Below are positions 1 through 30,385 of a stretch of DNA of 34,943 bases, piece by piece (position 1 is the first letter of the stretch; every line of letters starts with the position of its first letter). The notes under the pieces are model-generated. The model did not search any database and had not been told where the DNA came from. It worked only from the letters and a program-made list of their open reading frames with translations. A program made the position numbers and the translations under genes. The stretch covers positions 1 through 34,943 of the forward strand of contig JACOYE010000002.1 of assembly GCA_016182045.1 (NCBI GenBank). The letters are read 5' to 3'. The DNA is from Candidatus Microgenomates bacterium (lineage in GTDB: Bacteria > Patescibacteriota > Microgenomatia > Daviesbacterales > UBA10151).

Positions 1-3000
1 CCGGGTATAGTCTTTCCTGCCAATGGCTTGGCTGTTTTGGGGAATGTGGGTATTGGTACTACCACTGTGGGATCTAACTTACTTCAGGTGGCCGGTAATG
101 TGGGGATATCCAGATCCTTAACAGTCACCAGTGTTATTGCAGCTAATGGAGGATTAAAGGTAAGTGGATTATCCGATCTAACAGGTAATGTGGGAGTGGG
201 ATTATCCTTAACCACTCTATCTGTTGCTAATTTAAACACTCTTAGGGTAGGTGGTTTCTCAGATCTGAGAGGTAATGTGGGGATTGGGGGATCTTTAACA
301 GTTACCTCTGCTGTCACTTTTTCCAACTTAGTTTCCTGTAACACTATTGACACAAATGCCAGCGGGGTTTTAGCTTGTGGTACAGATGCCGGGGCTACTT
401 TTGAGCGCTTTACCGCAAACGGTACATACACTAAGCCATCCGGCGCAGTAACTGTCTACGTCGTCGCGATCGGTGCTGGTGGAGGCGGTGGAGGGGGAGA
501 GGGCGCTGCTGCCTCAACTGCCCGGACAGGCGGGTCTGGTGGTGGTGGGGGCGCGATAGCTTCCAAGATATTTGATGCTGCTGCTGTGGGGGCAACCGAA
601 ACAGTTACTATTGGTGGGGCAGGCACAGCAGGTAGTGGAGGATCTAGCGCAAATGGCGGCGATGGAATAACAGGCGGGGACACGACTTTTGGCAGCCTTT
701 TAACAGCCTATGGTGGTGGTGGTGGTGGTGGTGGAAAGGGTTCAGCGCGTGGGGGTGGTGGAGGAGGAGGCACAGGTTCGGCAGGGGCCAGTGGAGCGGA
801 TGCTTCAACCGCACAAGGCGGGCAACCTGGAGATGGGCTAGTCGCGGCTGGTGGTACTGGTGGTGATGCCACTAGCTCGAATGATGGTAGGAGTGCAGAA
901 TATGGTGGTGGGGCAGGTGGAAGCGCAGATATTTCGGGTGGTACTAGTAGTTTAGGTGGTAGCTCAATATATGGTGCGCCTGGAGGTGGCAGTGGAGGTG
1001 GTGTTTCATCAGCCAATGTAGAGACTGGTGGGGCGGCTGGAGGAACCAGGTCAAGCTACACCGCCGGCGGCGGTGGAGCCGGAGGGGCAGTTAACGGGGG
1101 TGCTGGAACAGCCGGGACAAACAAAACAGACGGCCCAGGTACAGGAGGTGGTGGTGGTGGTGGGCAAGACTCAGGAACAGGTGGTGTTGGAGGCAACGCT
1201 GGAACCCCAGGAGCAGGTGGAGGGGGCGGTGGGAGTGGGACTACCACTGGTGGAGCAGGTGGCGAAGGTGCAAGAGGCGAAATTTGGGTTTGGACTGTGA
1301 CAGGAGGAGCCGGGGCTGACCTGGCAGAAGTTTACTATTCTTTGGATATGTCTTTGGAAGCAGCAGATGTGGTGGTGGCAGATCCCAATTTACCTGGAAT
1401 AGGGTTTAAAAAATCTAATAAAGCTTATGATGGTAAAATCTTGGGTATCGTCTCCACCCAGCCGGGATTGGTCTTGGGAGACGATTCCACGCCTCCATCA
1501 GATAAACAAGCCAAACCAGTTCAGCTGGCTTTAGCAGGAAGAGTGCCTGTGAAAGTCTCCACTGAAAATGGGCCAATTGAGGTTGGGGATTACTTAACCT
1601 CCTCCTCCACCCCCGGGGTGGCCATGAAGGCCACGAAAGCAGGACCTGTAGTAGGTAAGGCCTTGGAGGCTTGGGATGGTGAAGGAGGAACTCAATGCCC
1701 CAACCAACAAAAAACCACCCTTGCGGATGGCTCTTTGACGGTTCGCACTTCTGATGAAGTAGCGCTCGATCTGTCTGGAGAAACTATACCACAAAATACT
1801 ACCAATGTCAATAATCAAAACGTGGAGGTGACGAGCACCCCCACGCATCCTCCATTATGTGGTAAGATTTTAACTTTTGTCAACGTCTCCTATGCTGATC
1901 CTGATGCATCCCTTACCTCAAATTCAGGCTTTGAGATTATTAAGAAAATATTAGAACCTATTGGTGAAGTTTTTTATGCAGTAACTAATGCGACAGGTGA
2001 AATTGTCCAAAGAATTGGCATCTTTTCCGAAGCCACCATTGGTTCTTTGGATGCAGGCATTATTTTGGCTGAAGATCTAAAAATAGACGGCCTGATCCAA
2101 TCCACTGCCTCCTCCTCTGCCATTGCTCTTAAGGTTTCGGATGAGACTATCAATGTCTTTAATACTAAGGAAGCCACTCCCTCGGCTGTAGTGACCATTG
2201 ACAATCTGGGTAACATTGACACAGAGGGTACCATTTCCGCTCCTGTGATTGCCGTGAGTCAAATCATGATTGCTTCTTCCTCTGCCAGCCTGACCATCAC
2301 CAGCCATACAGGAGATGAGCTGTTTACCTTAGATAATCAGGGCAATATTGAAGGCAAAGTGGCTAAACTGGATAAGCTGCTTTTGCCGGCAGGCATTAAT
2401 CTGGCCCTGGATGAAGGTCAAACTATCCTGGCTTACCAGACCACCACCTTAAGCAGCGGCGACACCTCATATCAGGTAGATGTCTATCAGTCTTTAAAGA
2501 ATCTGGAATCTAAGGTGTTGGAGGTGGAGGAGAAGCTTAATTCACAAACTCAGCAGGCTTCATCTTCTGCTGAGTTGGCAGATGCTGCCGAGGTGGCCAC
2601 TTCTTCTGCTAATCTGGCTTCCACCTCTGATACCTCTGGATCCTTCGATTCCACTCAGGCCTTCGGCTCTGAGGCTCAGGCTCGAAGAGATCTCGCTTCG
2701 CTCGACCTCACCCCTCCTGATATCTTACTGGCCTCTGATTCTGCTACTTTAACAGCTGATTTAACAGTCACCTCCAATGCAGACATCTTAGGTCAATTAA
2801 CAGCCTATGAAGGAATATTTGAGGAATCTCTTAATTCATATGGTCAGACCACTCTATCAGATACCCTGATTGCCGGCAGATTAACAATTGACGGTCTCTT
2901 CTCCATTGATAACGGCAGTGAGATTAATGTGATTGGCGGAGCCTTTTCCCAAAACAGCTCTTCATCCGGCATCCTTTACCTTCAGAAATCTCCCCTCTCC

Positions 3001-3327: not shown

Positions 3328-3404
3328 AAAAACTACCATATTTTATTAGTTTGATATATTTGATATCAGTTGCAATAAAAACAAATAGCCTTTATGGTAG
3401 TTAG
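3324..3404 (+). CDS. Candidate 26-aa membrane/signal-like microprotein MKKLPYFISLIYLISVAIKTNSLYGS
   Basis: ATG overlaps the upstream TGA (ATGA). Lys-rich N-terminus plus hydrophobic core; TAG stop 11 nt before the next gene. Not in the supplied ORF track. Confidence 0.3.
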   Translation: MKKLPYFISLIYLISVAIKTNSLYGS

Positions 3405-3415
3405 GTGATAATTTA

Positions 3416-5746
3416 ATGAAAGAGTCAATCAATACCTATCTCAGCTTGATTTTTAAAATCGGGGTGGTCTCAGTCATCCTGTCCACTTTCTTTCTTTTTA
3501 CCAATTTAACCACCGATTTTTATGACACACCTAAATTTATAGTTCTTTTGATCTTTACCGCTATTATTCTGATTTTATTAACAATCAAGTTTACCCTCTC
3601 CGGCAAAGTGGTTCTAATCAGAACCCCCCTGGATTTGCCACTGCTACTGCTTTTGGTGGTGGTAATTATTTCCACCTTTTTATCCCCCGCTCCATATGTA
3701 TCTTTGCTGGGCAACCAGGTTAGAATTCATGGCAGTTTAGTGGCCATAGCAGTCTATGTACTGTTCTACTTTCTTCTGGTAAACAATTTAAGATCCTTAA
3801 GAGAGATCAAATTTATTAACTTGGTGCTAACGGGCAGCGGTGGGGTGCTGGCAGCCGTTACCCTCCTTTCTTATTTTGGAGTCAGGTTACTTCCATCTCC
3901 CTGGAATGTGGGGCCTAACTTTACCCCCACCGGTTCTTCCTTCTCCACATCTGCTGTTTTGGTCCTGCTGATCCCCTTGGTGGTCTTACAGATCATTTCC
4001 GAGAAAAGTTTTGCCCCCAAACACTTAGCCTCCAAGCTGTACCATATTGTGCTACTGACCACTTTTGGAGTGACAGTGGCTCTGGTTGGTAGCTGGGCCA
4101 CTTACATTGCGGCCATTTTAGGTGTGGCTGCGGTCCTTTATCTAAACCGGGACGTTTTGGAAACCAGTCTGAGAGGGCTAACCGGACTGATTGGACTAAT
4201 TATCCCTGCAGTGGTGGTTTTGGCAGTAGTGCTACTGTCTTTTGTGCCCATCCCAGTTCAAACTCCTTTAGCCGAACGGGCCAAAAACTTTCCCAGAGAA
4301 ATACAGCTACCCTTTGTGACTTCTTGGAAAGTATCTGTTTCCGCTTTCAGAGATAACCCATTTTGGGGTAGCGGACCTTCCACATATCTATTCAACTTTA
4401 CCTCCTACAAACCGGTGGAGTTTAATCAATACAAGTTTTGGAATATCAGATTTGATACAGCTTTCAATGAATATTTGCAGGTGCTGGCCACTTTGGGAGG
4501 AGTAGGACTAGTGGCTCTTCTGTCCTTAACAGCCATGTTTATCAATATGGCTGCCAGGGTGCTACGCTTACCTCATGCATATGCCGGTCCTGCTCATAAA
4601 TTAGCTCAAGCTTTGGCAGTTTCAGGCTTAACTTTCTTTTTGATACTCCTTTTGCACCCTTCCACTTTAACCTTGTGGGTGGGGGGTCTTTTGATTTTGG
4701 CCATCTTTTGCGCTCTTAATCTGATGACTTCGGGCAATCCTTCCCTCAACCGGGAGGGAGTAGGAGGAAACCTCAAACAGGTATTTATGCGTTTGGCCTC
4801 CAATATCTCCCAAACAGGCACCAGCGAAGAAACAGTCCGAGTTGATGCTTTACCGGGGATATTGCTGGTCATATCTTTAGCAGCGGTCTTGAGCGCATTT
4901 TTCTTTGGAGGCAAGTTGGTTTTGGCAGATTTCCATCACCGCAAGGCCTTGGATGCGGTTTTGCAAAACCAGGGAGTGGTGGCTTACAACGATCTGGTGA
5001 GGGCGGAACAACTTAATCCGGTGTCTGACTTATACAGAACCGATTTGGCCCAGGTCAATTTTGCCCTGGCCAATGCCATTGCCCTGGCTAAAGCACCCTC
5101 CGAGGCATCTCCTGCCGGTTCTTTGACTGATCAGGATAAACAAAATATTCAAGTTTTGCTTCAACAATCCATCAATGAAGGCAGAACTGCCGTCTCTCTT
5201 TCTCCCCGTTCTGCCATCAATTGGGAAATTTTGGCCACACTTTACAGACAAATAGCCGGTGTGGCGGAAAATGCCTTAATCTTTTCTTTGGATTCTTATG
5301 GAAGAGCTATTTTCCAGGACCCCTTAAATCCCCTTTTAAGGCTTTATGTGGGAGGAACGTATTATGCTGTTCAAAATTATGATTTGGCCGTCCGCTTCTT
5401 TACCGATTCCATCAACTTAAAACCTGATTTTGCCAACGGTTACTACAATCTGTCTGTGGCTTTAAGAGATAGGGGGGATTTAAATGCGGCCTTACAGGCA
5501 GCGGAAAGAATGATTACTTTTGTTGAGGCCTCATCTGCCGATTATCAGGTAGCTCAAGACTACCTAAACGATCTAAAAAACAGGATTTCTCCGCCTAATC
5601 CTCCTCAACCACCTGCCGCTACTGCCTCAGGAGCTTTGCAGGAAGAAGGTTTGCCAAAAGTGGTTGATGTAGGACAACCACCGGCCAAAATAGCCACACC
5701 CGAAGCTATAAAGAGACCATCACCTACCCCATCTCCTCAGCCATAA
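3416..5746 (+). CDS. O-antigen ligase/polymerase-like polytopic membrane protein with C-terminal TPR region
   Basis: Multiple TM segments, O-antigen-ligase-like loop (FRDNPFWGSGPSTYLFNF...), then TPR-like repeats (LRLYVGGTYYAVQNYDLAVRFFTDSINLKPDFANGYYNLSVALRDRGDLNAAL). SD-like AGGTGA upstream. Confidence 0.75.
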   Translation: MKESINTYLSLIFKIGVVSVILSTFFLFTNLTTDFYDTPKFIVLLIFTAIILILLTIKFTLSGKVVLIRTPLDLPLLLLLVVVIISTFLSPAPYVSLLGNQVRIHGSLVAIAVYVLFYFLLVNNLRSLREIKFINLVLTGSGGVLAAVTLLSYFGVRLLPSPWNVGPNFTPTGSSFSTSAVLVLLIPLVVLQIISEKSFAPKHLASKLYHIVLLTTFGVTVALVGSWATYIAAILGVAAVLYLNRDVLETSLRGLTGLIGLIIPAVVVLAVVLLSFVPIPVQTPLAERAKNFPREIQLPFVTSWKVSVSAFRDNPFWGSGPSTYLFNFTSYKPVEFNQYKFWNIRFDTAFNEYLQVLATLGGVGLVALLSLTAMFINMAARVLRLPHAYAGPAHKLAQALAVSGLTFFLILLLHPSTLTLWVGGLLILAIFCALNLMTSGNPSLNREGVGGNLKQVFMRLASNISQTGTSEETVRVDALPGILLVISLAAVLSAFFFGGKLVLADFHHRKALDAVLQNQGVVAYNDLVRAEQLNPVSDLYRTDLAQVNFALANAIALAKAPSEASPAGSLTDQDKQNIQVLLQQSINEGRTAVSLSPRSAINWEILATLYRQIAGVAENALIFSLDSYGRAIFQDPLNPLLRLYVGGTYYAVQNYDLAVRFFTDSINLKPDFANGYYNLSVALRDRGDLNAALQAAERMITFVEASSADYQVAQDYLNDLKNRISPPNPPQPPAATASGALQEEGLPKVVDVGQPPAKIATPEAIKRPSPTPSPQP

Positions 5747-5750
5747 TAAG

Positions 5751-5822: not shown

Positions 5823-5848
5823 AACTGAGCGAGCGTAGCGAGTCGAAG

Positions 5849-5920
5849 TGGACCCGAGGGGAATCGAACCCCTTATCTGTCCGATGCCATCGGACCGTCG
5901 TACCGTCAGACCCCGGGCCC
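5849..5920 (-). tRNA. tRNA-Ala (anticodon GGC)
   Basis: GGGCCCG/CGGGTCC acceptor with G3:U70; anticodon stem GTCCG/CGGAC with loop ATGGCAT; T-arm AGGGG-TTCGATT-CCCCT; G instead of U at position 8. Confidence 0.88.
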
Positions 5921-5925
5921 ATTAA

Positions 5926-5967
5926 ATATAATTTTTATAATAATTATAACGATTATAATAATTATTT
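5926..5967. repeat. 9-bp-period AT-rich repeat, intergenic copy
   Basis: ATAATTTTT ATAATAATT ATAACGATT ATAATAATT ATT. Confidence 0.8.
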
Positions 5968-7083
5968 CAAAATTGCCAGCGGATTAAGGGGCACACCTTT
6001 ATAGTGAATCTCCAAATGCAGATGAGTTCCGGTGGAGCGGCCTGTTGATCCCATCTGTCCTATCAGCTGTCCTCTGGAAACAGTCTCACCCACTGAGACA
6101 TAAACGTTGGACAGATGAGCATATAAAGATCTGTAACCGTTGCCGTGATCCAAAACCACCCTGTTGCCGAAACCGCCGCCATCTGGCCAGCCTGCCATCA
6201 CCACCGTACCCCCATCAGCTGCCGCAATCCCCGGAGCAGACCTATTGGCTATATCTATTCCCGAATGATACCAAGCATAATATTGGGTTAAAGAACCACC
6301 CACCGGCCAGATAAATTGGGCTCCTCCGGGAGCAGAAAAGGCAGGAGAAGAAGGACCTTGGGCCAAGTATTGGGGTTTAGGTCTGGCAGGCGGTTTTACT
6401 TGCGGTGGCGAACCGTCGGGAATAATCAGCAGCTCTCCCACCTTCAGAGTAAAATCATCAGGCACATCATTGAAGGGAAAATCAACTATGGCCTGTTCAT
6501 TGGCAGAATATTTTTTGGCCACTGATTCCAAAGTATCTCCTGATTTGACAGTATGGGAAACACCACTGACAGGCAGAATCTTTAAAATGTCCCCTGGTTT
6601 AATTGCATCACCCTTTAAATCATTTGCCCATCTGATTGTCTCTGTGGAGATGCCGAATTTTTTGGCAATAGAGGATAGGGTATCTCCTTCTTCCACTTCA
6701 TAGTCTATTATTTCCGAGCGGGGTTTTTGAGAAATGGTGGTATGAGGGTCTATCCCGTTTGACTGAGGATCAAATAACACCCCGTTGGGGAAAGGTTCAA
6801 AAGCATCTGTAAAACGTGGATCCGGCCCGCCAATGCCGGGGTAGGTAGATGAGATCAAACTTTGACCTCCAAAAACTCCCGATGTTAAGATCCCCACTGA
6901 GGCCAGTCCCACCATTGATCCATGCCAAAAATGTTTTTGCAAAGCTCCCCTTTTTAACATCAAAGCCTCTACCACCCAGTTCTTAAAACCTTCAAACTCT
7001 GTGGCAAAATAGCGGATTTTCTTTCTGGAATACCAAATTAAGGCCAAAAAAATAGCCCTTATATCATCTGTTAGGGAATTCAC
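5962..7083 (-). CDS. Secreted/membrane-anchored LysM (x2) + M23 metallopeptidase
   Basis: YEVEEGDTLSSIAKKFGISTETIRWAN and HTVKSGDTLESVAKKYSANEQAI (LysM); YHSGIDIA...GNRVVLDHGNGYRSLYAHLS...GSTGRSTGTHLHLEI (M23). Hydrophobic N-terminal segment; GTG start. Confidence 0.9.
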   Translation of the reverse strand: MNSLTDDIRAIFLALIWYSRKKIRYFATEFEGFKNWVVEALMLKRGALQKHFWHGSMVGLASVGILTSGVFGGQSLISSTYPGIGGPDPRFTDAFEPFPNGVLFDPQSNGIDPHTTISQKPRSEIIDYEVEEGDTLSSIAKKFGISTETIRWANDLKGDAIKPGDILKILPVSGVSHTVKSGDTLESVAKKYSANEQAIVDFPFNDVPDDFTLKVGELLIIPDGSPPQVKPPARPKPQYLAQGPSSPAFSAPGGAQFIWPVGGSLTQYYAWYHSGIDIANRSAPGIAAADGGTVVMAGWPDGGGFGNRVVLDHGNGYRSLYAHLSNVYVSVGETVSRGQLIGQMGSTGRSTGTHLHLEIHYKGVPLNPLAILK

Positions 7084-7107
7084 GGGAAATATTGTAACAC
7101 ATTGATG

Positions 7108-8517
7108 CTAGACACCTTTCAAAGTCTTGAGGAATTCCTCATTAGAATCTGTCTTCCCCAACCTTCCCAAAAATACCTCAGTTCTTTCTCCCGGATTTAA
7201 AATTCCAATCATCCTGCGCATCACCACCATTTGCCCATAATAATCTTCTGAAAATAACAGCTGTTCCTGTCTGGTGCCTGAAGCCTCAATATCTATGGCC
7301 GGAAAAATTCTTCTCTCGGCAAGAGCGCGGTCCAGATGCAACTCCATATTACCGGTGCCTTTAAATTCCTCATAAATCAGATCATCCATTCTGGATCCCG
7401 TATCAACCAAGGCAGTACCGATGATGGTCAAAGATCCACCTTCTTCACAATTTCTGGCAGCCCCAAAAAAGTGCTTGGGAGGATATAAAGCTACCGGGTC
7501 AAATCCGCCGCTTAGCGTTCGCCCAGATGGCGGGACAGATAGGTTGTAGGCCCTGCCAAGTCTGGTGATGGAGTCCAGCAAAATTACCACATCTTTCCCG
7601 CTCTCCACCAGCCTTTTTGCCCGTTCCAAGGCGATCTCAGCTGCGGCAGTTTGCTCTTCTGCCGGCTCGTCAAAATTGGAGGCAATCACATCACCTTTGA
7701 TAGAGCGGGAGATATCGGTAACCTCCTCTGGTCGCTCACCCACCAACACCGCCATCAAAATCACCTCGGGATGATTTTTGGCCAAACCTTCGGCAATATC
7801 TTTTAAGATGGTGGTTTTACCTGCCTTGGGAGGTGAAACAATCAAACCTCTCTGTCCAAAACCAATGGGGGCCACCAGATCAATTACTCTTTGAGACAAG
7901 GGAGCTTTACCTGTTTCTAATTTTAAGTGCTTGTTGGGATAAATGGCTGTCAGGTCTTCGAAACGTTTACGTTTCGCCCTGAGCGTACCTGTGGTGAGCG
8001 TAGTCGAACCAGTCGAAGGGATACTGCTTACTAATTTCTCTGCATCCTCGCCATTGATTTTATTAACTTGCAGCAGACCAAAATATCTCTCTGTTTCTTT
8101 GGGAGGCCTGGCAGCCCCTTCCACCAGATCACCCGACCTCAGCTGAAACCTTCTGATCTGGCTGGCAGAAATATATATATCTTGATCAGAAGGAATATAT
8201 TTGGGGCGTAAAAACCCATGCCCTTCCGGCATGATTTCCAGGATACCGGAAACTTCCTCTGTAGGAACATCACGGTCACGATCTGAATAGCGGTCTCCAT
8301 TATAGCGGTAACCATTTCGGAAAGACTCAGAACGACTCGGTGTATCAGAGTATCGGTGTGTCGGAGTGTCAGAGAAATCAGAGTTTCTGACATTCTGAGT
8401 CTCTGATCCACTGATACTCTGGTTCTCCGAGTTTTCCGAGTGTTCTGAACTACCTACCAGTTTATCAACTGATTTAGTTTCGTCCTTTGGCTTAAATGTT
8501 TTAGTTACACGAGGCAT
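7108..8517 (-). CDS. rho: Transcription termination factor Rho
   Basis: RGLIVSPPKAGKTTILKDIA (Walker A), VILLDSITRLGRAYN, PPSGRTLSGGFDPVALYPPKHFFGAARN, RMDDLIYEEFKGTGNMELHLDRALAERRIFPAIDIEASGTRQEQLL. Confidence 0.97.
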   Translation of the reverse strand: MPRVTKTFKPKDETKSVDKLVGSSEHSENSENQSISGSETQNVRNSDFSDTPTHRYSDTPSRSESFRNGYRYNGDRYSDRDRDVPTEEVSGILEIMPEGHGFLRPKYIPSDQDIYISASQIRRFQLRSGDLVEGAARPPKETERYFGLLQVNKINGEDAEKLVSSIPSTGSTTLTTGTLRAKRKRFEDLTAIYPNKHLKLETGKAPLSQRVIDLVAPIGFGQRGLIVSPPKAGKTTILKDIAEGLAKNHPEVILMAVLVGERPEEVTDISRSIKGDVIASNFDEPAEEQTAAAEIALERAKRLVESGKDVVILLDSITRLGRAYNLSVPPSGRTLSGGFDPVALYPPKHFFGAARNCEEGGSLTIIGTALVDTGSRMDDLIYEEFKGTGNMELHLDRALAERRIFPAIDIEASGTRQEQLLFSEDYYGQMVVMRRMIGILNPGERTEVFLGRLGKTDSNEEFLKTLKGV

Positions 8518-14874: not shown

Positions 14875-16383
14875 ATCATATAAGTAGATTGAAGCACCCG
14901 TTGTGTGGTATTCATCCAATTTTTTCCCCATCCTGTCAAGTTTACTGATAAAAAACTGTTCCTCAGTAACATCTGGTATTCCCTTTACATTAGCAACATG
15001 TGAGAAAACAAACCAGATTCTTCTTGAACCCTTAAGCTTCTCCATATCTTGAGCATATTCAGCTAATTTTTCACTGCTAGATATGCCCATAATTACAGCT
15101 GATTTTAAGCCCAATTTTTGAGAATAATAACGAAACCCTGGCGCTGCTGCATAATAAAGGTAGACTAAATCATCTTCCTGGTGTTTGGATTTATAATATT
15201 GCACCACTGACTCCATATCTTCTGACACCCTTGAGTGAGTTAAATAGTTAATATCTGAGATAATTGTTTTATAAAAGAATAAAATTATGAAAAGAGAATA
15301 AATAATATAGCTTCGGAAGGTGTCCCCTTGCGAACCTACACGCACGGAAGGCGTCGCCTTTTGAACGTAACTTTCAATAAACTCCACACCCTGAGCGAAC
15401 ATAATCAATAAAGAAGGCACTAAAAAGAGTAAAAACCTCCCAATAAATGGGTATACATGCAAGCTTGATGTTATTAAAGTTAAAACAAGTGGTGAAGTAA
15501 GTAAAGCCAATTTAAGCTTATTCTTTCTTAATAAGATACTTGCTCCAATTAAAACTATGATTAAACCCCTTCTAGGCCAGGAAAAATTCAAAGGATTGAT
15601 CATGAAATTAACAAAAGCATTAAAATACCATGTTAAATCCTCCTGACTTTTTGGTAATGGGGCAAAGGCAAAGCTCCAAAAACCAATTAGTCCTTGATTA
15701 CCTTCTAAACCTAACTTTATGGTTGTTAAATATGATGCTAGAAAACTTAATCCCCAAAGAACTTGAATAAAAATTATTTTCTTAAAATCAGCCCAATTTT
15801 TTGAAAAAAGTGAGTAAAAAGTCAATGTTAATCCCAATCCTGCCAAAACAAAAATAGCTGGATGGGAGAACCAGATCGATATTACTCCAATCCCAATCAA
15901 AATCCATATATTCTTGGGAAAATATTTTAATACTAAAAAATAAATTAACAAGGCAATAAATAAATCAAAAGAATATTGTTTAACCTCAGAAGAATAATAA
16001 ATTAAGCTATCTAAGATCGAGAAAATAAAGGTGGAAAAGACGGCTGTTTTTGGAGAAACAAAGTAACCGGCTACTTTGTAGAATAGAATCACAGACGAAA
16101 TGCCTGAAAGTAAGGGGAAAAACCTTAGAGACAGTTCACTTCCTCCAAAGATTACCACAGCTAATTTTTCCAGCCAGAAAAAGCCAATGGTAGCATAAAC
16201 AGGATCCATCTGTTGGGTAAGTTCCCAAAAAGATCTTTGGATAATGAATAATGCAAAGGCAGCCTCATCAAGCCATAAAGATCTGTCTGCCAAATACTCT
16301 TTTAACCTTAAAATTACTCCTAAATAAATAGCAATTTGAGCCCAAAATGGGGTATTTTTTAGAAGGCTGTACATATCTTTCAC
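14848..16383 (-). CDS. GT-C/PMT-like membrane glycosyltransferase
   Basis: Polytopic; early acidic motif LADRSLWLDEAAFA followed by many TM helices. Confidence 0.7.
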   Translation of the reverse strand: MKDMYSLLKNTPFWAQIAIYLGVILRLKEYLADRSLWLDEAAFALFIIQRSFWELTQQMDPVYATIGFFWLEKLAVVIFGGSELSLRFFPLLSGISSVILFYKVAGYFVSPKTAVFSTFIFSILDSLIYYSSEVKQYSFDLFIALLIYFLVLKYFPKNIWILIGIGVISIWFSHPAIFVLAGLGLTLTFYSLFSKNWADFKKIIFIQVLWGLSFLASYLTTIKLGLEGNQGLIGFWSFAFAPLPKSQEDLTWYFNAFVNFMINPLNFSWPRRGLIIVLIGASILLRKNKLKLALLTSPLVLTLITSSLHVYPFIGRFLLFLVPSLLIMFAQGVEFIESYVQKATPSVRVGSQGDTFRSYIIYSLFIILFFYKTIISDINYLTHSRVSEDMESVVQYYKSKHQEDDLVYLYYAAAPGFRYYSQKLGLKSAVIMGISSSEKLAEYAQDMEKLKGSRRIWFVFSHVANVKGIPDVTEEQFFISKLDRMGKKLDEYHTTGASIYLYDLAKSSHSP

Positions 16384-17515: not shown

Positions 17516-18750
17516 AGTCATCCCCATCAATATATATAATAGCCGGTAAAAATGTTTTGGCTGGACGAGGTGGGTATGCAGTTGTTGGGTATAATTGGGG
17601 TAAGTTATTATCCTCTTTAGGATACGAAGTTAAAATCTATTGCGTAGGAGCTAAAGATCAAATAACAAAGTCTCAGATTGGTGAGGTGCATATAGTAGGC
17701 TCAAAAATAGCAACTACCTTTTTAAAAGATGTTGAAATGGCAGGACTTTTATTTTTAGCTCCAAAAATAGCCTTGGCAATCTTACGTGATATTAAAGATC
17801 AAAAAATTGTTATTTTAGGCATGGGGCCATGGAGTTTAGCAGGAGCTTTACTAAAAATATACTCCACTGTCATTCCCGCGAAAGCGGGAATCCATAAAAT
17901 AATTCTTTTATCTGATTATTATACTTCTATAAAACATGAGTATTCTGGTATATTATCAGGGGTAAGAATTTCGGATCATGGCGTGTTAATAAAGCTTCAA
18001 ATTCAATTAATATACTACTTTATTTTTAAATTATACAGCTTACTAGAAAGGTTTCTTTTAAGGATAACTGATAAAATTATTACCCATTATTTATCAACTG
18101 AGAATATTTTAAAAGATGAATTTAAAATTAGCCCTAAAAAATTTATCCGTCTTCCCTACCACACCCACGTCATTGCGAGGTCGCCAAAGGCGACCGTGGC
18201 AATCTCTCTTAAACCCAAATTACCATTAATTCTGCTCATTTGCCGCCATGATGGCAGAAAAGGCATTAACTTTTTACTTCATGCTTTTCATATTTTAAAT
18301 AAAAGAGGAGTTAAATACTCAGCTCTAATCGCAGGAGCTGGTCCACTACTTAAGAAACATCAACAGTTGGCAAAAAAATTAGGGCTGGATAATGTAAAAA
18401 TACCAGGATTTATTGCAGATACCAGACCATTTTTAAAAAAAGCTGCTCTTTTTGTTTTCCCTTCTTTAGAGGAAGGCTCCTCTTCTTTAGCAATCTTAGA
18501 GGCTATGCAACAGGGCATGTCCATTGTTTCCACCAATGTGGATGGAATACCAGAAGATCTGATCCATAATAAATCTGCCATATTGGTTCCCCCAAAAGAT
18601 CCGGAAGCTTTGGCAGATGGGATGGAAAAACTATTGAGCGATCCTAAACTTGCTAAAAAATTAGGCAGACAGGCGAAAATTAGATATTATCAGAAATATA
18701 ATCTTTTAAAAGTTAAAAGAGAGGTGAGGAATTTTTTAAATGGACTTTAG
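17512..18750 (+). CDS. Family 4 glycosyltransferase carrying two in-frame dispersed-repeat insertions
   Basis: GRGGYAVVGYNWGKLLSSLGYEV, LLICRHDGRKGINFLLHAF, VFPSLEEGSSSLAILEAMQQGMSIVSTNVDGIPEDLIH; inserts TVIPAKAGIH and HVIARSPKATVAIS. Confidence 0.88.
   Translation: MKSSPSIYIIAGKNVLAGRGGYAVVGYNWGKLLSSLGYEVKIYCVGAKDQITKSQIGEVHIVGSKIATTFLKDVEMAGLLFLAPKIALAILRDIKDQKIVILGMGPWSLAGALLKIYSTVIPAKAGIHKIILLSDYYTSIKHEYSGILSGVRISDHGVLIKLQIQLIYYFIFKLYSLLERFLLRITDKIITHYLSTENILKDEFKISPKKFIRLPYHTHVIARSPKATVAISLKPKLPLILLICRHDGRKGINFLLHAFHILNKRGVKYSALIAGAGPLLKKHQQLAKKLGLDNVKIPGFIADTRPFLKKAALFVFPSLEEGSSSLAILEAMQQGMSIVSTNVDGIPEDLIHNKSAILVPPKDPEALADGMEKLLSDPKLAKKLGRQAKIRYYQKYNLLKVKREVRNFLNGL
17872..17891 (+). 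repeat. Dispersed palindromic repeat, in-frame copy (VIPAKAGI type)
   Basis: ATTCCCGC-GAAA-GCGGGAAT perfect hairpin encoding VIPAKAGI. Confidence 0.9.
18172..18203 (+). repeat. Dispersed palindromic repeat, in-frame copy (VIAR...VAIS type)
   Basis: ATTGC-GA-GGTCGCC-AAA-GGCGACC-GTG-GCAAT nested hairpin. Confidence 0.9.
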
Positions 18751-21535: not shown

Positions 21536-21536
21536 A

Positions 21537-23627
21537 CTATTCTATACCATATACTTTAATAATCTTCCCCTGACCAAAACAGGATTGATTATTTAATGGA
21601 TAGATTCTGATAACACTTGCGCTCTCTGCCGGAAAATCATATTCAACGGTACCTTTTCCCAAATCCTTTTTTTCATTTAAAATAAATGCTCTTGCGGGAT
21701 CTAAATCATTATCTACTTGATCTGAGGGGATGAAAAAGATTAACTCATTTGAATAAATCATTGTTTTATCACAAGCCGATAAATTTTCAACAAGAACTCT
21801 GGTAATTCGATAGTCCTTGTCTAGTCTGATTTCCCAAAAGTCTCCTCTTTCTTCACTTTTAGGTTGAACTATTATATTACTCAAAACTTTCTCTTTAGAT
21901 ATATCTAATTTATTAAACTTCTGTTCATTTTTATAGATACTAAGTAGTGATATCCCCTCTGCTTTTATTTCATGAACTGGATTTAGAAACTTTTCCGGAT
22001 ATCTTTTGGCAAAGGTGGGAGTATTTAAAGGATTATATAACACTAAAATATATTCTCCTTTTTGATCAAAGCCAGAAAAATGATACGGAGAGATAGAAAT
22101 GTCCTCTCTTAACCATAAAGGAGATATGGCATAATCAGAGCCCTGAAGATGGGCAATATTGGCATTTTCGTCTGCATTTTGATTCAGCCATAAAACAGCT
22201 TGCTTGTAGCTATTACCATAAGTTAATCCCCAATCATTAAATTTAATTTGTAGATCTTGGGGAAGTGTTTTCAATAAAACATTAAAATAAGCATTCTGGT
22301 TGGGATGAAGCTTAATGGTGGGGAAAAGCAATATAACCGTTATAATAGTTATAATCATTATAATCGTTATATTATTCTGAACCTTTTTTGCCAGGTAAGA
22401 TCCTCCCAACCCAGCCAGAATTGCCATAACAGGTAAAATCTCCATAATCTGTCTTACTCCTGTATAAGAATTCATACCTGGTAAGCTAACCCTTAGCGCT
22501 GGCATAATTAACCATACTAACAATAAATATCCTATCTTTAAGTTTCCTCCTCTTTCCTTAATTACCCAAATTACCCCTAACATTCCCAACAAAAGGATTA
22601 TCTCTGGTGTCTGTAGTAAAGTAGCAATTACAGGATAAAAATTAAATCCAAAAAAAGTAAAACCTTCAGGTTGCAGCTTATTTATACCTGTGCCAATAGT
22701 AAAATAGTATTTAAAAGGCTCAAGCAGTTTTCCAAGATTAAACCAAGCAGCAGGCCAAGTAGCTATTAAAAATATAATTACCCCTACTCCCCCTAATATC
22801 CCTAATTTCCCTAATTTCCCCCAATCTTTAAACTTAATTAATATTAGCCAGGGAATTAATATCAATGGCAGAAAAACTATGTTCCACTTAGTAGCTAAAG
22901 CTAAGGCTACAAACAAACAAAATAACCCCCACCACCTTAAATGGCGAGAGCGAACCCAATGCCAAAATGCCCAGATACTACCCAGAAAGAATACTGCTTG
23001 AGCTGGATCCTTCATATTAATATGTGATTCTGCAAAAAAGATGGGAAATAACCCTAAAGAGAGTCCTGCTACAGCTGAAGCAAGAAAAGAATGGGTTATC
23101 TCGTAAGTAAACAAACTCACTATAAATATGCCTAAAGATGAAATTAGAATATATACTAGTTGATAACTCTCAATATCCCCAAACCAACCCAATTTTCCCC
23201 AGAATAACCTATTTGAAATAGCTGAGAGTGTATCTACAAGTGGCAAATGCGGAGTATCATACCTTAACCATAATTCCCCATTCCAAATCTCAGATTGATA
23301 GTAACTTAATTTTCCATCCCTTTGTTTTTGAACATTATCAAATTCTTTTTTAAGCAACAATCTTTGTGGCAAAGGGCCAATGGGTTTTGTATCTTCTACA
23401 GGTATATAATAATATCTGCTGGCTATTTCACCTGGCTTAATAATATTTGGTGAATAATTGGTAGGTAAATTATATGTTTTCTGACCAGTTAAATAAAAAT
23501 TGGCAAAAGCCTGACCACGCATCATATGAATGGGTGCATCCCAATTTATCCCATAATCAGAGATGGTAAATATCCCTACTATTAAAAATACTAGAGATAA
23601 AGAAATTGGTAAAAAATATTTATTCAT
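21537..23627 (-). CDS. GT-C/PMT-like membrane glycosyltransferase, paralog of 25347..27521
   Basis: DYGINWDAPIHMMRGQAFANFYLTGQKTY; AESHINMKDPAQAVFFLGSIWAFWHWV; many TM helices. Internal Met (MNKYFLPISL) preferred as start. Confidence 0.75.
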   Translation of the reverse strand: MNKYFLPISLSLVFLIVGIFTISDYGINWDAPIHMMRGQAFANFYLTGQKTYNLPTNYSPNIIKPGEIASRYYYIPVEDTKPIGPLPQRLLLKKEFDNVQKQRDGKLSYYQSEIWNGELWLRYDTPHLPLVDTLSAISNRLFWGKLGWFGDIESYQLVYILISSLGIFIVSLFTYEITHSFLASAVAGLSLGLFPIFFAESHINMKDPAQAVFFLGSIWAFWHWVRSRHLRWWGLFCLFVALALATKWNIVFLPLILIPWLILIKFKDWGKLGKLGILGGVGVIIFLIATWPAAWFNLGKLLEPFKYYFTIGTGINKLQPEGFTFFGFNFYPVIATLLQTPEIILLLGMLGVIWVIKERGGNLKIGYLLLVWLIMPALRVSLPGMNSYTGVRQIMEILPVMAILAGLGGSYLAKKVQNNITIIMIITIITVILLFPTIKLHPNQNAYFNVLLKTLPQDLQIKFNDWGLTYGNSYKQAVLWLNQNADENANIAHLQGSDYAISPLWLREDISISPYHFSGFDQKGEYILVLYNPLNTPTFAKRYPEKFLNPVHEIKAEGISLLSIYKNEQKFNKLDISKEKVLSNIIVQPKSEERGDFWEIRLDKDYRITRVLVENLSACDKTMIYSNELIFFIPSDQVDNDLDPARAFILNEKKDLGKGTVEYDFPAESASVIRIYPLNNQSCFGQGKIIKVYGIE

Positions 23628-23628
23628 A

Positions 23629-25350
23629 CTAAATTTTAAATGCACTAACCAACTCACCTGTATAAATTTCTTTAAGATTAGATTCCTTAAGCTTCCTTAT
23701 TAATTCTTCTCCTGTTTGTGAATTAATATACTCATCTTTGTGAACTATGATTGCATCAACTTTCATGCTTTTAAGCTGGTTTATCTTATCTTTTGTGGGG
23801 AAATTGATGGTTAAAGATTGTCCTAATAAAGTTCTTTGAGGAGGATTATATGCGGCATTTCCATTAATTAGCTTTTTTTTATGACCCAGGGCATATAATA
23901 AATACTTAGAATCATCAAAATAAGATCTGTTAATAGAGGGGTAATTACTTAACTCATTAGCAATTGGCAGCTCTAATATCACATTAATCTGAGGCTGTTT
24001 ATCCAACCATTGATAAAAACTTTTCACTTCAGGATTTACTTTAAAAACAGGGAGCAAACTGTGCTGATACTCAAGGCTAATTAAAAACACCAGTCCTAAG
24101 ATTACCCCTAATCTCCCCTTGTCCGCCGAAGCCTTGTCGCCGACGCTCCATAGCTTTGGCGACGGAGCGGCGAAGACGGACCATCTCTCTAGCAGCCATT
24201 TTACCGCAAAACCAGCTAAAATAGCATACGAGAAAAAACCCATTACCATAAATCTTGATGGAGCACGTAACGAATCAAAAAAAGGTACGAATTTGTAAAA
24301 TAATAAATATATATTGGGGATTAATGTTTCTCCAATTATAAAATAAGGACCAAATGAGAAGATAAAGGCAATTATCCATACAGCTATTAGTGCAATAAAA
24401 ACTTTTCTTAAAGCTGGCTCATACTTTCTTTTGAAAAACAGAAATAAACTAACAATAACCAAACCATAAACCACAAAACCTGCAAAAAGACTGTGCTCGG
24501 AATAATCACTATATTTTGTTCCTAATATTTGACCATATAACTTATTATCTTTGATGGTTGAGAAAAAATCCTTAAAAGTTGCTGAATGGGATACGATATT
24601 AGCAAATCCGGGACTGACACCAAACTCTTTTTTTACTCCCAAATAGGGCTGTAGATACAAAAACCCTATCACCACAGCCACAATTAATCCTACCAAACCC
24701 CATTTCATTCCCATAATCCTCCTAATCTCTCTTCCCCCCCTGATCACCCAATATACAGGCCAGGTTAAAGCCAAGAGAGTAGAGTAATAAAAAGAGGAAA
24801 TTAGCTGACCCAAAAATAGAAAAGGTAAAATAGCAACCCACTTTTTTCTCTTTTCCAGTATCTTCTCAGTTACTAGAAATATCAGAGGCATCCAAAAAAG
24901 AACTATTTGAGCAAAATAAAACTGAGCCATTGCGTATGGATTATAAGTAAAAATTAACCCACCCACTATCGATGAGGAGACTGATTTTGTTAGCTGAAAT
25001 ATTAACAGATACATCAGCAGAAAGGCCAGAAAGAAATTGATTAATACCATGGAATGAGCAGATACAATCACATTTTTGGTCAAAATATAAACTGGCAAAG
25101 CCATGGCACTTTGAATAAACTGGCTGTTTCCTAAACTTAAAGTTTTACTCATGGGATAAAACATTCTCAGATCATAAAGGTGTTGAAAATCTAATGAGAC
25201 AAATTTCGATAAATTATTATCCAGCAGGAAATATTCATAAAAAAGATCTGTATCAGATAATGGTTTATCTATGTTCAATATCAGTTGATTTAGAAAAACC
25301 ACCACAAACAGTATTGAACTTATTGCCCCAATTAAAAATATTTTTCTCAT
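23629..25350 (-). CDS. Polytopic membrane protein, probable GT-C-type glycosyltransferase
   Basis: Multiple TM segments and C-terminal soluble domain; same strand as and tightly spaced with flanking GT-C genes. Confidence 0.6.
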   Translation of the reverse strand: MRKIFLIGAISSILFVVVFLNQLILNIDKPLSDTDLFYEYFLLDNNLSKFVSLDFQHLYDLRMFYPMSKTLSLGNSQFIQSAMALPVYILTKNVIVSAHSMVLINFFLAFLLMYLLIFQLTKSVSSSIVGGLIFTYNPYAMAQFYFAQIVLFWMPLIFLVTEKILEKRKKWVAILPFLFLGQLISSFYYSTLLALTWPVYWVIRGGREIRRIMGMKWGLVGLIVAVVIGFLYLQPYLGVKKEFGVSPGFANIVSHSATFKDFFSTIKDNKLYGQILGTKYSDYSEHSLFAGFVVYGLVIVSLFLFFKRKYEPALRKVFIALIAVWIIAFIFSFGPYFIIGETLIPNIYLLFYKFVPFFDSLRAPSRFMVMGFFSYAILAGFAVKWLLERWSVFAAPSPKLWSVGDKASADKGRLGVILGLVFLISLEYQHSLLPVFKVNPEVKSFYQWLDKQPQINVILELPIANELSNYPSINRSYFDDSKYLLYALGHKKKLINGNAAYNPPQRTLLGQSLTINFPTKDKINQLKSMKVDAIIVHKDEYINSQTGEELIRKLKESNLKEIYTGELVSAFKI

Positions 25351-27521
25351 TTTAATAAGAAACTTATATTTATTGTTTTTACTCCTTTAAAGCATGAATT
25401 TTCATTTTTGGGATGAATTTGAATAACCATAGCAGGCTCTGCAGCAAACTCATATTCTAACACTCCCCCTAAATCTTTTTTCTCCAAATTGGAGTGTAAT
25501 TCCCTATGACCACTTTGGTCAACAAACAACACTCTTTCATTCCCCTCCTCACCTATTAAACACTCAGGATTGGCATAATCTAAAGTAATTCTGGTAACCA
25601 GAACTTGTTTTTCTAAATTCACTTTCCAATAATATAACTCACCTGATCTTAGTTCATTTAATATTAAACCATAATCAGTTTTTTCTTTATTAAATTCCGG
25701 CTTTAGAAACTGTTTGTCATTTTTATAGATAGTGAGTAATGATACCCCGTCAACAATTATTTCGTGAACGGGACTTAAAAATTTTTCAGGGTATCTTTTG
25801 GCAAAAATAGGAGGATTCTCTGGATTAAGAGGCACTAATATATATTCACCTTTTTGCTCATATCCTGAAAAATGGTGGGGGGAAATTGAGATATCCCTTC
25901 TTAGGAATAAAGGAGAGAGGGAAAAATCAGGACCCTGCAGATGAGCTATATTGGCATCCGTGGGAGCATTTTTATTAAGCCACATTGCTGCCTGTTTATA
26001 AATATTGTCATTGCTGGATCCCCAACTAATCATATTTCGGTTATAAGCTCCTTTTAATCCTTCAATTAGACTATTAAAATAATAATTTTGGTTAGGATGA
26101 AGCCTAATGATTGGCACAAGCAATATAATTGTTATAACAGTTATAATAGTTATAATTATTATATTATTCCTAGTCTTCCTTACCAGGTAAAATCCCCCCA
26201 CTCCGGCCAGTAATGCCATAGCTGGGATAATTTCCATCACCTGCCTGATTTCCCCATAGCCCCAGGTTTTGGGAGTGGATACCCGAAGCAGAGTTACTAC
26301 GATCCAGCTTAAAATTAAATACCCTGATTTTAATCCGCCAACTGGCGGACCCCCTCTTTCCCTAATCACACCTATCATCCCTACCACCCCCAAAATTAAA
26401 ATTATCTCTGGAGTTTGAAAAAGTAATAGAGTAGGTACATACCAAGCCAGATTAAAGGAACTAGATCTGGATCCAACATCACTATAAAATCCTAGGATTC
26501 CTTTCAATTTTCCTAAAGGATCGTCCCAAAGATATGGCCAGATTAAAATTATAAATGCTATTACCCCTACCCCCCCTACCAACCCTAATACCCCTAACCT
26601 CCTCGCTTCGCGAAGCGAGCCCAACTTAAACCAAGCTTTAAACTCTTCAGTTTTTCTGATTAAAAATAACCAGGGAATTAAGATAAAAGGCAAAAAAACA
26701 ATATTCCATTTTGTAGCTAAAGCCAAAGCCACAAATATTATAAATACCCCAAATCTTCCCAATCCCCCCCATCTCCCTGACCTGTCCTGAGCGTAGTCGA
26801 AGGATCTCCCTTCTTTTACCCAAAGATAAAAGGCCCAGATAGCTCCCATGAAAAATACAGCCTGCGAGGGATCTTTCATATTAATATGTGATTCTGCAAA
26901 GTAGAAAGGATGGAAAGCCAAAGATAAACCTGCTGCCAAACTAGCCAGATAAGATCCACTAATCTCATAAGTAAAGAGAGCCGCCAGAAATACACCCAAA
27001 GCTGAAATTAAAATATAGATTAGTTGGTAACTTTCAATATCCCCCAACACACCCAACCACCCATAAAAAAATCTGTTAGATAAGGCAGCCAAAATATCTA
27101 TCAAAGGAGGATGTCCACCATCAAAATTCAACCAAAACTCTCCTCCCCACCCATCATATTGATAAAAACTTACTCTCTTACCCAATTTAGCCAATTGATC
27201 TTCAAATTCAGCTTTAATCAAAGGGCGTTCTGGTAAGGATACAGGCTGTTTAGGAAAGGGTGGGGCAATATATTCTGTATCACCAAGATAATAACGACTG
27301 GCATAATCTTTTGGTCCAACCAGCATGGGGGAGGTTCGTTTACCTAAATCATAACTGGTTTTACCGGTAAGGAAATAATGTAGAAAAGCCTGACCTCGCA
27401 TCATATGAATTGGTGCATCCCAATTGATGCCGTAGTGCGACAAAGTCAACACACCCACGATAAGGAAAGCAATAGCGATGACTAATGGTATAAATATCTG
27501 TCTTATTTTCACTTTTACCAT
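25347..27521 (-). CDS. GT-C/PMT-like membrane glycosyltransferase, paralog of 21537..23627
   Basis: HYGINWDAPIHMMRGQAFLHYFLTGKTSYD; AESHINMKDPSQAVFFMGAIWAFYLWV; MVKVKIRQ start preferred. Confidence 0.75.
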   Translation of the reverse strand: MVKVKIRQIFIPLVIAIAFLIVGVLTLSHYGINWDAPIHMMRGQAFLHYFLTGKTSYDLGKRTSPMLVGPKDYASRYYLGDTEYIAPPFPKQPVSLPERPLIKAEFEDQLAKLGKRVSFYQYDGWGGEFWLNFDGGHPPLIDILAALSNRFFYGWLGVLGDIESYQLIYILISALGVFLAALFTYEISGSYLASLAAGLSLAFHPFYFAESHINMKDPSQAVFFMGAIWAFYLWVKEGRSFDYAQDRSGRWGGLGRFGVFIIFVALALATKWNIVFLPFILIPWLFLIRKTEEFKAWFKLGSLREARRLGVLGLVGGVGVIAFIILIWPYLWDDPLGKLKGILGFYSDVGSRSSSFNLAWYVPTLLLFQTPEIILILGVVGMIGVIRERGGPPVGGLKSGYLILSWIVVTLLRVSTPKTWGYGEIRQVMEIIPAMALLAGVGGFYLVRKTRNNIIIITIITVITIILLVPIIRLHPNQNYYFNSLIEGLKGAYNRNMISWGSSNDNIYKQAAMWLNKNAPTDANIAHLQGPDFSLSPLFLRRDISISPHHFSGYEQKGEYILVPLNPENPPIFAKRYPEKFLSPVHEIIVDGVSLLTIYKNDKQFLKPEFNKEKTDYGLILNELRSGELYYWKVNLEKQVLVTRITLDYANPECLIGEEGNERVLFVDQSGHRELHSNLEKKDLGGVLEYEFAAEPAMVIQIHPKNENSCFKGVKTINISFLLK
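26602..26619 (-). repeat. Perfect 18-bp palindrome within CDS
   Basis: CTCGCTTCGCGAAGCGAG encoding GSLREARRL. Confidence 0.85.
26785..26804 (-). repeat. FDYAQDR-type dispersed repeat within CDS
   Basis: TCCTGAGCGTAGTCGAAGGA (minus: TCCTTCGACTACGCTCAGGA) encoding SFDYAQD. Confidence 0.85.
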
Positions 27522-27546
27522 TGTATTATATAATCCCAATAAGCCA

Positions 27547-28326: not shown

Positions 28327-28330
28327 CTTA

Positions 28331-30385
28331 ATGACCAAAATTCATCTTGGCTTAATTCTTGAATTTATCCTTTTTTTAATTATCATAATTTTTGCCATAC
28401 ATCCTGTGGAGAATTTTGATTTCTGGTTTCATGTTAAATTAGGTGAACATATTTTACAAACCAAAAGCTTGCCATTTACTGATCAGTTCTCCCATACTTC
28501 TCTGGGTGCTCCTGCCATCCCCTATGAATGGCTATTTCAGGTAATTATCTACCTAATCTATAAAACACTGGGCAATCCGGGAGTTCAAGCCTTAGTGGCT
28601 TTTTTGGCTTTAGCTTATTCATTTATATTTCGCCAGATCCTTTTGGAAATCTTCCAGGTTCCTTTAGTACCCAGATTATTTTTAGTAGGCTTTTCATATG
28701 TAGCAGGTTTTGACTTTTGGGTGGAGCGGCCGCAGTCTGTTGCTTATGCACTTTTTATGATCACCCTCTATATCATCCTAAAAAGAGTTTTTACGCACAC
28801 AGGGAGACTCCTTTTGTGGCTGACCATCCCCGTCTTTTTCATTTGGACCAATTTACATGCCAGTATGGTGTTGGGGCTTTATTTATTCTTTTCTTTTGCC
28901 ATCATTTGTTTGATCAGAAAGGACCTTAAACAGGCTCGAGACCTTCTTCTGTTTGGCGTCATTAATACCCTGATCACTCTTCTTCCTCCTTTGGGAATCA
29001 AAACTTACCAGCTTTTGTATCTGTTTTTTGAAAAAAGAGACTTTATTATGGTGGTTATTTCTGAATGGGTACCTTTGTATAAACTGGGCATCAGATACTA
29101 TATCTATCTTCTGATAATCGGCCTGGCTGCCGCATCCTTATTTTGGGCTTTCCTGAAAAAAACCAGACTTCGTTCCGTCATTGCGAGGAACACTTCGGCT
29201 TCGCTCAGTGTAAACTCCGTGACGAAGCAATCTCATTCTAGTAAGATCGCCACGTCGTCCTTCGACAAGCTCAGGACTCCTCGCGATGACGTTTTGAGCT
29301 TGGATCTTTTTTTCTTTTTGCCCTTTATCCCTTTAGGTCTCCTTGTGATTTCCGGGGTCAGACAAACCCAATTTTCCATGCCAGCCATCCTGCTTTGTAC
29401 AGTACCGGCCATCCAACTTCTAAAAGGTAAGCTTAAGTTTAGTATAACGATTATAACAATTATAACTATTATAATTTTTATCTCTCTTATAACCTCCCTC
29501 TATTTTTACCGCCAGCAAGTTATATCTATTTCCAGACTCTATCCCGAACAAGCTATCCCTTTTATTAAGGCCAATCTAGCAGGAAATATGTTTAATGAAT
29601 ATCATATGGGAGGATTTTTAATGTATCAATTAGGGCCTGCTATTAAAACCTTTATTGACGGCAGGACTGACATGTTTTTACCCCAAGTTTTACCTGAATA
29701 TGACAGATTGATTAATAATGATTTTTCAGATAGGGAGTTTGCTGATTATTTCAATTTTTTGGTTCACAAATATGATGTTTCCTGGGCTATTTTAACAACT
29801 GAACGTTTTACTAAAATCAGACGTCTTGCCAGAATCATCAGAAGCGATCCTGCCTGGCACTTAGTTTTCTTTGATGATCAAGCTGACATTTATGTTAGAG
29901 ATGATGGAAAAAATCCTTCTGTTACCCAACAATTTGCCATAAAAGCTGCCACTCCTTTTGGAAAAAGGCTATACAAAGAAGGTCAAAGAGATCAGGCTGG
30001 AAAGGAATATGACAGGATGCGCTCTATTGCTCCATCTGCTGCCTCTTTAAATGCTTTGGGCTTCATGCTTTTGGAGGATAAACAATTTGATCAGGCCAGA
30101 AGTTTATTTGAACAGGCTTTAATAATTGATCCCAAATCTGCTGCCCCCAAGATGAATCTGGCTGAACTGGCTGCCAAAGATGGCAATTTAGATGAGGCCA
30201 AAAGACTTTATAAACAGGCCATCAATGATGAGCCGGACAGAGGCTTGGCCTATTTAAGACTGGGACAGCTGATTATTGAGTCAGGGGGATCTAAAAATGA
30301 GGCCAGAAAAATTTGGCAAAAAGGCTTAACATCCACTCCGGATGAGGAAGTACTGGTTAAGCTAAGAAAAGAGTTGACAGAATAA
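28331..30385 (+). CDS. Polytopic membrane protein (GT-C-like) with C-terminal TPRs and in-frame repeat insertion
   Basis: TM helices; ASLNALGFMLLEDKQFDQARSLFEQALIIDPKSAAPKMNLAELAAKDGNLDEAKRLYKQAIND (TPR); insert SVIARNTSASLSVNSVTKQSHSSKIATSSFDKLRTPRDD. Confidence 0.75.
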   Translation: MTKIHLGLILEFILFLIIIIFAIHPVENFDFWFHVKLGEHILQTKSLPFTDQFSHTSLGAPAIPYEWLFQVIIYLIYKTLGNPGVQALVAFLALAYSFIFRQILLEIFQVPLVPRLFLVGFSYVAGFDFWVERPQSVAYALFMITLYIILKRVFTHTGRLLLWLTIPVFFIWTNLHASMVLGLYLFFSFAIICLIRKDLKQARDLLLFGVINTLITLLPPLGIKTYQLLYLFFEKRDFIMVVISEWVPLYKLGIRYYIYLLIIGLAAASLFWAFLKKTRLRSVIARNTSASLSVNSVTKQSHSSKIATSSFDKLRTPRDDVLSLDLFFFLPFIPLGLLVISGVRQTQFSMPAILLCTVPAIQLLKGKLKFSITIITIITIIIFISLITSLYFYRQQVISISRLYPEQAIPFIKANLAGNMFNEYHMGGFLMYQLGPAIKTFIDGRTDMFLPQVLPEYDRLINNDFSDREFADYFNFLVHKYDVSWAILTTERFTKIRRLARIIRSDPAWHLVFFDDQADIYVRDDGKNPSVTQQFAIKAATPFGKRLYKEGQRDQAGKEYDRMRSIAPSAASLNALGFMLLEDKQFDQARSLFEQALIIDPKSAAPKMNLAELAAKDGNLDEAKRLYKQAINDEPDRGLAYLRLGQLIIESGGSKNEARKIWQKGLTSTPDEEVLVKLRKELTE
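29176..29291 (+). repeat. Composite dispersed inverted-repeat element inside CDS
   Basis: CGTCATTGCGAGGA ... TCCTCGCGATGACG outer arms (13/14 complementary) enclosing ACGAAGCAATCTC and CCTTCGACAAGCTCAGG-type modules. Confidence 0.85.

Follow-up and report, generated by a model that had tools for sequence, protein, structure and literature searches.

Palindromic repeats inserted in frame into protein-coding genes were described in Rickettsia as Rickettsia palindromic elements (RPEs; Ogata et al. 2000, as summarized in PMC10969869 and PMC3733652). Repetitive extragenic palindromes (REPs) have been found inside genes of several phyla, including those encoding DNA polymerase I, UvrD, and DNA ligase, in a survey that defines the CGTC-tagged families CGTC-1 to CGTC-4 and makes no mention of Patescibacteria (PMC3733652). 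The enterobacterial mobile repeats RU-1, RU-2, and RU-3 are fused in frame into genes, and new peptides have been suggested to result (PMC2759123; Delihas 2007). Here we describe short palindromic repeats in a stretch of DNA of 34,943 nucleotides (nt), referred to below as the window, from Candidatus Microgenomates bacterium (assembly GCA_016182045.1, contig JACOYE010000002.1), and in the rest of that genome. An initial annotation of the window had named eleven repeat-derived peptides in at least eight genes. Such peptides are very probably by-products of palindromic repeats of the REP or RPE kind that have spread through the genome and survive where proteins tolerate them, with no dedicated diversifying system.

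The window is the entire contig C3 of a 905-kb draft genome in 24 contigs (numbered with a prefix C below). After the named peptides had been located, DNA copies were sought in 264 kb sampled from this genome and in loci around repeat matches; genes were aligned with orthologues where these could be obtained, and other parts of the genome were covered by pattern searches. The nearest relatives compared belong to the same family and class and have small genomes; together with the gene content, these relatives suggest that the genome is one of the candidate phyla radiation.

Repeat families in the genome

Two families, B and C, predominate among the repeats of the genome. Family B is a hairpin unit of 20–24 nt with a near-fixed core, TTCGACTNCGCTCA, enclosed by three outer base pairs that covary. 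Allowing at most one mismatch, the core gives 27 matches, compared with one for the reversed-pattern control. Adjacent to the core, three base pairs show complementarity in 25/27, 26/27, and 26/27 copies and form about ten different stems, pairing falls to 9/27 at the fourth position, and permuted flanks never come near the observed values. Likewise, 60 copies taken from other genomes within the phylum have a summed stem length of 181, versus a permutation maximum of 95. B units are also nested within B units, the inserted one being exactly 24 nt long in four of five cases and 21 nt in the fifth, with three of the four 24-nt cases having the same inner unit and thus not being fully independent. 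One common nested core is enclosed in rho by a CCC/GGG outer stem and elsewhere by TAC/GTA. Additional B hairpins occupy loops of other repeats, including the family-C element of gene 28331, and the nesting suggests that insertion takes place at hairpin loops, possibly while the DNA is single-stranded.

Family B was found in 118 of the 380 genomes sampled from the phylum, and its 22-mer ATCCTTCGACTACGCTCAGGAC is present exactly, among the matches listed, in Bacteroidetes, Chloroflexi, Planctomycetes, Nitrospira, Gammaproteobacteria, Cyanobacteria, Elusimicrobia, Fibrobacter, Dependentiae, and other groups. The window contains three exact or near-exact B cores, versus about one expected, and the density of B in it is not exceptional. 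It is conceivable, if rather doubtful, that family B represents a distinct class of tiny mobile hairpins, characterized by a near-invariant 14-nt core, three complementarily renewed base pairs, a 24-nt unit, a preference for existing hairpin loops, spread across phyla, and a length divisible by three that would make it intrinsically able to enter genes in frame. What moves B hairpins and keeps their arms complementary is the mechanistic question raised by this covariation and by a core that is nearly identical in different phyla.

Family C, with about 24 elements, has the form GTCATTGCGAG..CTCGCAATGAC, and GTCATTGCGAG faces a second copy in a head-to-head arrangement. Its end pattern has 44 matches, compared with 3 for the control. 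The dimers are 66–89 nt long, except in 28331, where B hairpins sit inside and the length reaches 114 nt. Discovery with 14-nt k-mers in the 264-kb sample returned low-copy families only, so that the repeats cannot be called abundant, while 11-mers recover GTCATTGCGAG in the same sample. Further repeats, each in a few copies, are a CGTC-1 REP and two small palindromes. TCCTCAACAGATGGAAAAAATTGGACCCAGGAAACT is a separate, longer repeat with about five copies in the sample.

The initial annotation had proposed a test of whether copies within genes are enriched for lengths divisible by three and for one reading frame, and both patterns are seen. Full C dimers have such lengths in 9 of 10 genic cases, or 8 of 9 upon exclusion of one dimer (locus L210) with a doubtful partner end, compared with 2 of 8 outside genes or at their edges (P = 0.013). 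Seven of the eight genic dimers of this length with clear partner ends read VIA/VIL...ND and one is read in another frame; the third frame meets TGA. The families are present elsewhere in the genome, and neither random frames nor many disrupted genes were seen. No gene is clearly broken, the only frameshift flag (C11:27.3 kb) marking the end of one gene followed by the start of a separate one. The lengths of intergenic C dimers are mixed, and this variation indicates that family C is not built to be in frame.

Repeat-derived peptides in the window

Support for a site consisted of one or more of the following: further genomic copies, absence from orthologues, or full agreement with a repeat type described before. 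Repeat-derived sites number eight and fall in five genes (the adhesin, with the repeat shifted upstream, Rho, GT4 with two, 25347 with three, and 28331), whereas the peptides named in the O-antigen ligase, 14848, and 23629 are unproven (Table 1).

The insert in Rho lies in the interdomain linker, is identical in 39/40 nt to a copy at C2:6.7 kb and in 42/45 nt to a copy at C13:3.1 kb, and does not appear in aligned relatives, the closest of which have a Rho shorter by about 11 residues. The predicted structure of Rho is poor and can be used only to assign this region as a coil in the linker. The SDTP-type segment in the N-terminal extension matches, over 47 nt at 85%, a loop insert in tsaD of the same genome (C11:168.3 kb). 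A segment resembling the SDTP-rich stretch common to the Rho N terminus and TsaD is also found in TsaD of another genome, G015.

In the PMT-like gene 25347, the palindrome encoding PPVGGL has copies at C4 and C13 (20/21 and 21/23 nt) and results in a net gain of four residues. The one encoding SLREARRL has a 21/21-nt copy at C11 and is shared by the orthologue from G031, so this insertion must be old. The B unit encoding SFDYAQDR is identical in 22/22 nt to C11:182.8 kb and occurs neither in the paralogue 21537 nor in six relatives. The TVIPAKAGIH segment of GT4 has further copies on C1 and C17 (28/30 and 21/22 nt) and is missing from two orthologues, and the half family-C element of the same gene lies in a variable linker with almost zero net gain in length. 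The dimer in 28331, of a length divisible by three and carrying two B-type hairpins, accounts for about 46 residues that are absent in the orthologue from G031 and mostly absent in that from G041.

Most of ARRDLASLDLTP, the peptide initially named in the adhesin, is native, with the repeat just upstream of it. The part ASLDLTPPD was ruled out as a repeat, since LDLTPPD/E is conserved in relatives, whereas the region upstream is variable or absent in them and has a 34/34-nt copy at C13:19.6 kb and a 20/21-nt match to B at C4. In the O-antigen ligase, the proposed stem (4742–4759) is exactly in place, within a linker that varies in relatives, but a search of 264 kb yielded no second copy. The segments in the two GT-C genes are palindromic, that of 23629 forming a strong hairpin, but they have only weak matches elsewhere (86% over 29 nt for 14848; partial matches of 14 and 18 nt for 23629), and no orthologues of either gene were found among 281 genomes of the class or in a GTDB scan. 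The peptide QPSFFKKGFGG of a FemAB-like protein, considered as an extra insert, is native in relatives.

Table 1. Positions of repeat-derived and candidate segments in the window.
Positions	Strand	Feature	Gene (peptide)	Remarks
2639–2689	+	Family-B-like repeat pair	Adhesin	Encodes FDSTQAFGSEAQARR
4736–4768	+	Short inverted repeat TCCCTC..GAGGGA	O-antigen ligase (NPSLNREGVGG)	Candidate only
5825–5848	.	B-like repeat CTGAGCGAGCGTAGCGAGTCGAAG	Intergenic	24/24-nt copy near C11:181 kb
7976–8020 (site 7975–8020)	−	Nested family-B element, 24-nt unit within the loop of another B unit	rho (PSTGSTTLTTGTLRA)	
8313–8394	−	SDTP-type repeat segment	rho, N-terminal extension	Not listed in the initial annotation
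15316–15366	−	Candidate repeat-derived segment	GT-C 14848 (VQKATPSVRVGSQGDTF)	Palindromic, unproven
17868–17894 (peptide 17866–17895)	+	CGTC-1-type REP TGTC-ATTCCCGC-GAAA-GCGGGAAT-CCA	GT4 (TVIPAKAGIH)	
18169–18207	+	Family-C half element	GT4 (VIARSPKATVAIS)	
24115–24183	−	Candidate palindromic segment	GT-C 23629	Unproven
26331–26349 (peptide 26331–26348)	−	Palindrome TCCGCCAGTTGGCGGA	25347, PMT-like (PPVGGL)	
26595–26619 (peptide 26595–26618)	−	Palindrome CTCGCTTCGCGAAGCGAG	25347 (SLREARRL)	
26781–26804	−	Family-B 24-nt unit TCC-TTCGACTACGCTCA-GGA-CAGG	25347 (SFDYAQDR)	
29177–29290 (site 29174–29293)	+	Full family-C dimer, 114 nt	28331	
29190–29211	+	B-type hairpin ACAC-TTCGGCTTCGCTCA-GTGT	28331	In the apical loop of the family-C element
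29258–29277	+	Second B-type hairpin (TTCGACAAGCTCAG core)	28331	In the same family-C element; 19–20-nt copies on C11 and C21

Two other kinds of repetition were observed in the window. Runs of TATAATNNT with a 9-nt period are located at 5918–5972, 22323–22386, 26115–26178, and 29443–29497, and three of the four code for Ile/Thr-rich stretches of large membrane proteins; they are a coding repeat of a separate kind. The two ends of the contig (14–317 and 34154–34943) carry adhesin genes that are similar and oppositely oriented, so that the contig probably breaks within a repeated gene.

Inserts in genes beyond the window

In-frame palindromic inserts were found in about 20 genes, essential ones included; some of the gene names are our own reading of the sequence. 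Copies of B or C are located in the open frames of a TatD nuclease, an ATP-citrate-lyase-like protein (two), a sugar nucleotidyltransferase, TsaD, HisRS, YebC, a prepilin-peptidase-like protein, the CCA-adding enzyme, a P-type ATPase, PcrA (two), a class-I tRNA synthetase (ValRS by our reading), a Mur ligase, and others. Among genes of replication and repair, family-C inserts are present in those of PcrA (C4:25.2–25.6 kb), DNA polymerase I (locus L218), and an ATP-dependent DNA ligase (L221). The corresponding sites are empty in orthologues of Rho, TsaD, 28331, 25347, and GT4, and the inserts are located in variable loops of unrelated proteins.

TsaD illustrates such locations. Following AAVL, its B insert supplies seven residues that the closest relatives lack, and in the predicted structure the two inserts coincide with the two internal stretches in which the confidence score (predicted local distance difference test, pLDDT) falls below 50, namely residues 23–28 in a hairpin turn and 244–262 in an inter-helix loop. 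The turn itself (residues 18–30 in L034/L177) carries different extra segments in at least three other lineages (GSPSTSSGSTS, YLPTGRQV, and EIPTSGKPLADKGV in L179, L190, and L193), two of these segments resembling other repeat peptides. In the CCA-adding enzyme, about 25 extra residues directly follow the motif RRDFTVNAMA, relative to a solved structure.

Depletion in genes and origin of the inserts

While 89.6% of the sampled DNA is coding, only 14/27 copies of B and 13/24 copies of C are genic (about 52–54%), compared with about 90% expected by chance (P ~1e-6 for B and ~1e-5 for C), and the number of copies per kb is 7–8 times higher in non-genic DNA than in genes. The predominance inside genes of lengths divisible by three and of a single frame can be attributed to purifying selection on a randomly inserting repeat, as for RPEs and intragenic REPs. 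Copies would insert more or less randomly, probably via a single-stranded or hairpin intermediate, since the repeats repeatedly land in loops of other repeats. Insertions that break genes would be lost, and the survivors would consist of intergenic copies and a minority situated in frame in permissive loops, linkers, and protein ends. The added peptides would mostly be tolerated passengers, which may become raw material for protein change; no evidence of selection for them was found in these data.

The initial annotation had gone further, viewing the repeats as a continuing source of new protein segments and possibly as a protein-diversifying process. That repeats do supply protein segments is borne out, but a standing, possibly evolved process that keeps adding them is unsupported, and we consider it unlikely. 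Many genes are affected, one frame predominates, lengths in genes are divisible by three, near-identical copies suggest that spread continues, and the B unit deduced from nested copies is, with 24 nt, itself a multiple of three, all of which would be consistent with such a process. However, genes are depleted of copies rather than enriched, the recipients are unrelated housekeeping proteins with no obvious preference for surface genes, the inserts sit in variable loops, and intergenic C dimers have mixed lengths that are mostly not multiples of three. A selection filter yields the same pattern with no added assumption; the depletion in genes together with the mixed intergenic lengths points to purifying selection and provides no evidence for diversification.

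It is very unlikely that the peptides are native and conserved, resembling repeats only through codon bias or chance. While this is true of the ASLDLTPPD part of the adhesin and of the FemAB-like peptide, exact copies of 18–40 nt exist at unrelated loci, and most of the other sites are missing from orthologues, which refutes a native origin for the confirmed ones. Misassembly of repeats into genes of a metagenome-derived genome, or an error of binning, might be suspected in a draft of 24 contigs, one of which forms the entire window and ends in repeated adhesin genes, yet it is scarcely credible, as ordinary reads are longer than these repeats of 20–114 nt, more than 20 genes keep their frames intact, and the same elements are present in many other genomes, one of them a complete chromosome.

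Several points weigh against insertion of mobile palindromes followed by loss of the damaging copies. Mobility, random insertion, and such loss are what we infer; sample sizes in the test of length divisibility are small; and genes were called by a simple hexamer-based method. No mobilizer could be assigned to B or C. The genome contains three Y1 transposase genes of the REP-associated type, all below the curated cut-off for REP-associated tyrosine transposases (RAYTs), with RAYT-like genes at C18 and C2. The one on C18 (L001 1276–2025, ~19.2–20.0 kb) has GGAGTCTCC palindromes on both sides and one in frame inside (SLQGDSLQ), and is tied by these flanks to a palindrome other than B or C. A linkage of family B to RAYTs was accordingly rejected, as 80 B-bearing loci of other organisms also contain no RAYT.

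Comparison with described systems

As far as RPEs are described in the accounts cited above, the repeats of this genome resemble them in being palindromes that occupy tolerated positions, in frame, within functional genes that are unrelated to one another in a reduced genome, and in being intergenic as well. They differ in belonging to a candidate-phyla genome, in sequence, in size (20–114 nt versus ~150 nt for the first RPEs), and in that about half of them are non-genic. Two properties of RPEs are found here, a repeated palindrome at many loci (27 for B, about 24 for C) and an open frame combined with absence in orthologues (Rho, TsaD, 28331, 25347, GT4, and the CCA-adding enzyme); the inserts may be translated within functional proteins.

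The first GT4 element agrees with CGTC-1 (PMC3733652) in its TGTC tag, 8-bp stem starting with AT, 4-nt loop, and CCA tail. Family C shares with CGTC REPs, which have stems of 8–9 bp and loops of 4–5 nt, the head-to-head dimer, the outer GTC-AT ends, and the lack of a linked transposase, but its stem is broken by mismatches and its apical loop and hairpins are variable. The gene classes of replication and repair that carry inserts here are the same as those reported to contain REPs in other phyla (PMC3733652). The GTAG REP/RAYT systems (REPINs and REPtrons) are similar in their short imperfect palindromes and in the REP-associated Y1 transposase genes present in this genome. However, family B does not conform to the definition of a GTAG REP, with its unpaired terminal GTAG and 5–13-bp stem, as B contains GNAG inside the core and an outer stem of 3 bp, and no RAYT gene was found near B of the kind seen in those systems. 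RU-1, RU-2, and RU-3 are unrelated MITE-like sequences (miniature inverted-repeat transposable elements) of 103–168 bp.

A limited literature search found no papers on REP/RAYT-like elements in candidate phyla. In-frame palindromic insertion, known mainly from Rickettsia and a few REP-rich bacteria, is extended to the candidate phyla radiation, where it is seen in core enzymes such as TsaD, the CCA-adding enzyme, tRNA synthetases, DNA polymerase I, DNA ligase, PcrA, and Rho. Segments such as VIASEAKQS..PRND, SFDYAQD, and VIPAKAGI in predicted proteins should be taken as repeat insertions, which is relevant to annotation, alignments, and structure prediction. It is well supported that the repeats represent a known kind of phenomenon in a new group, for which an adaptive or programmed interpretation is not needed.

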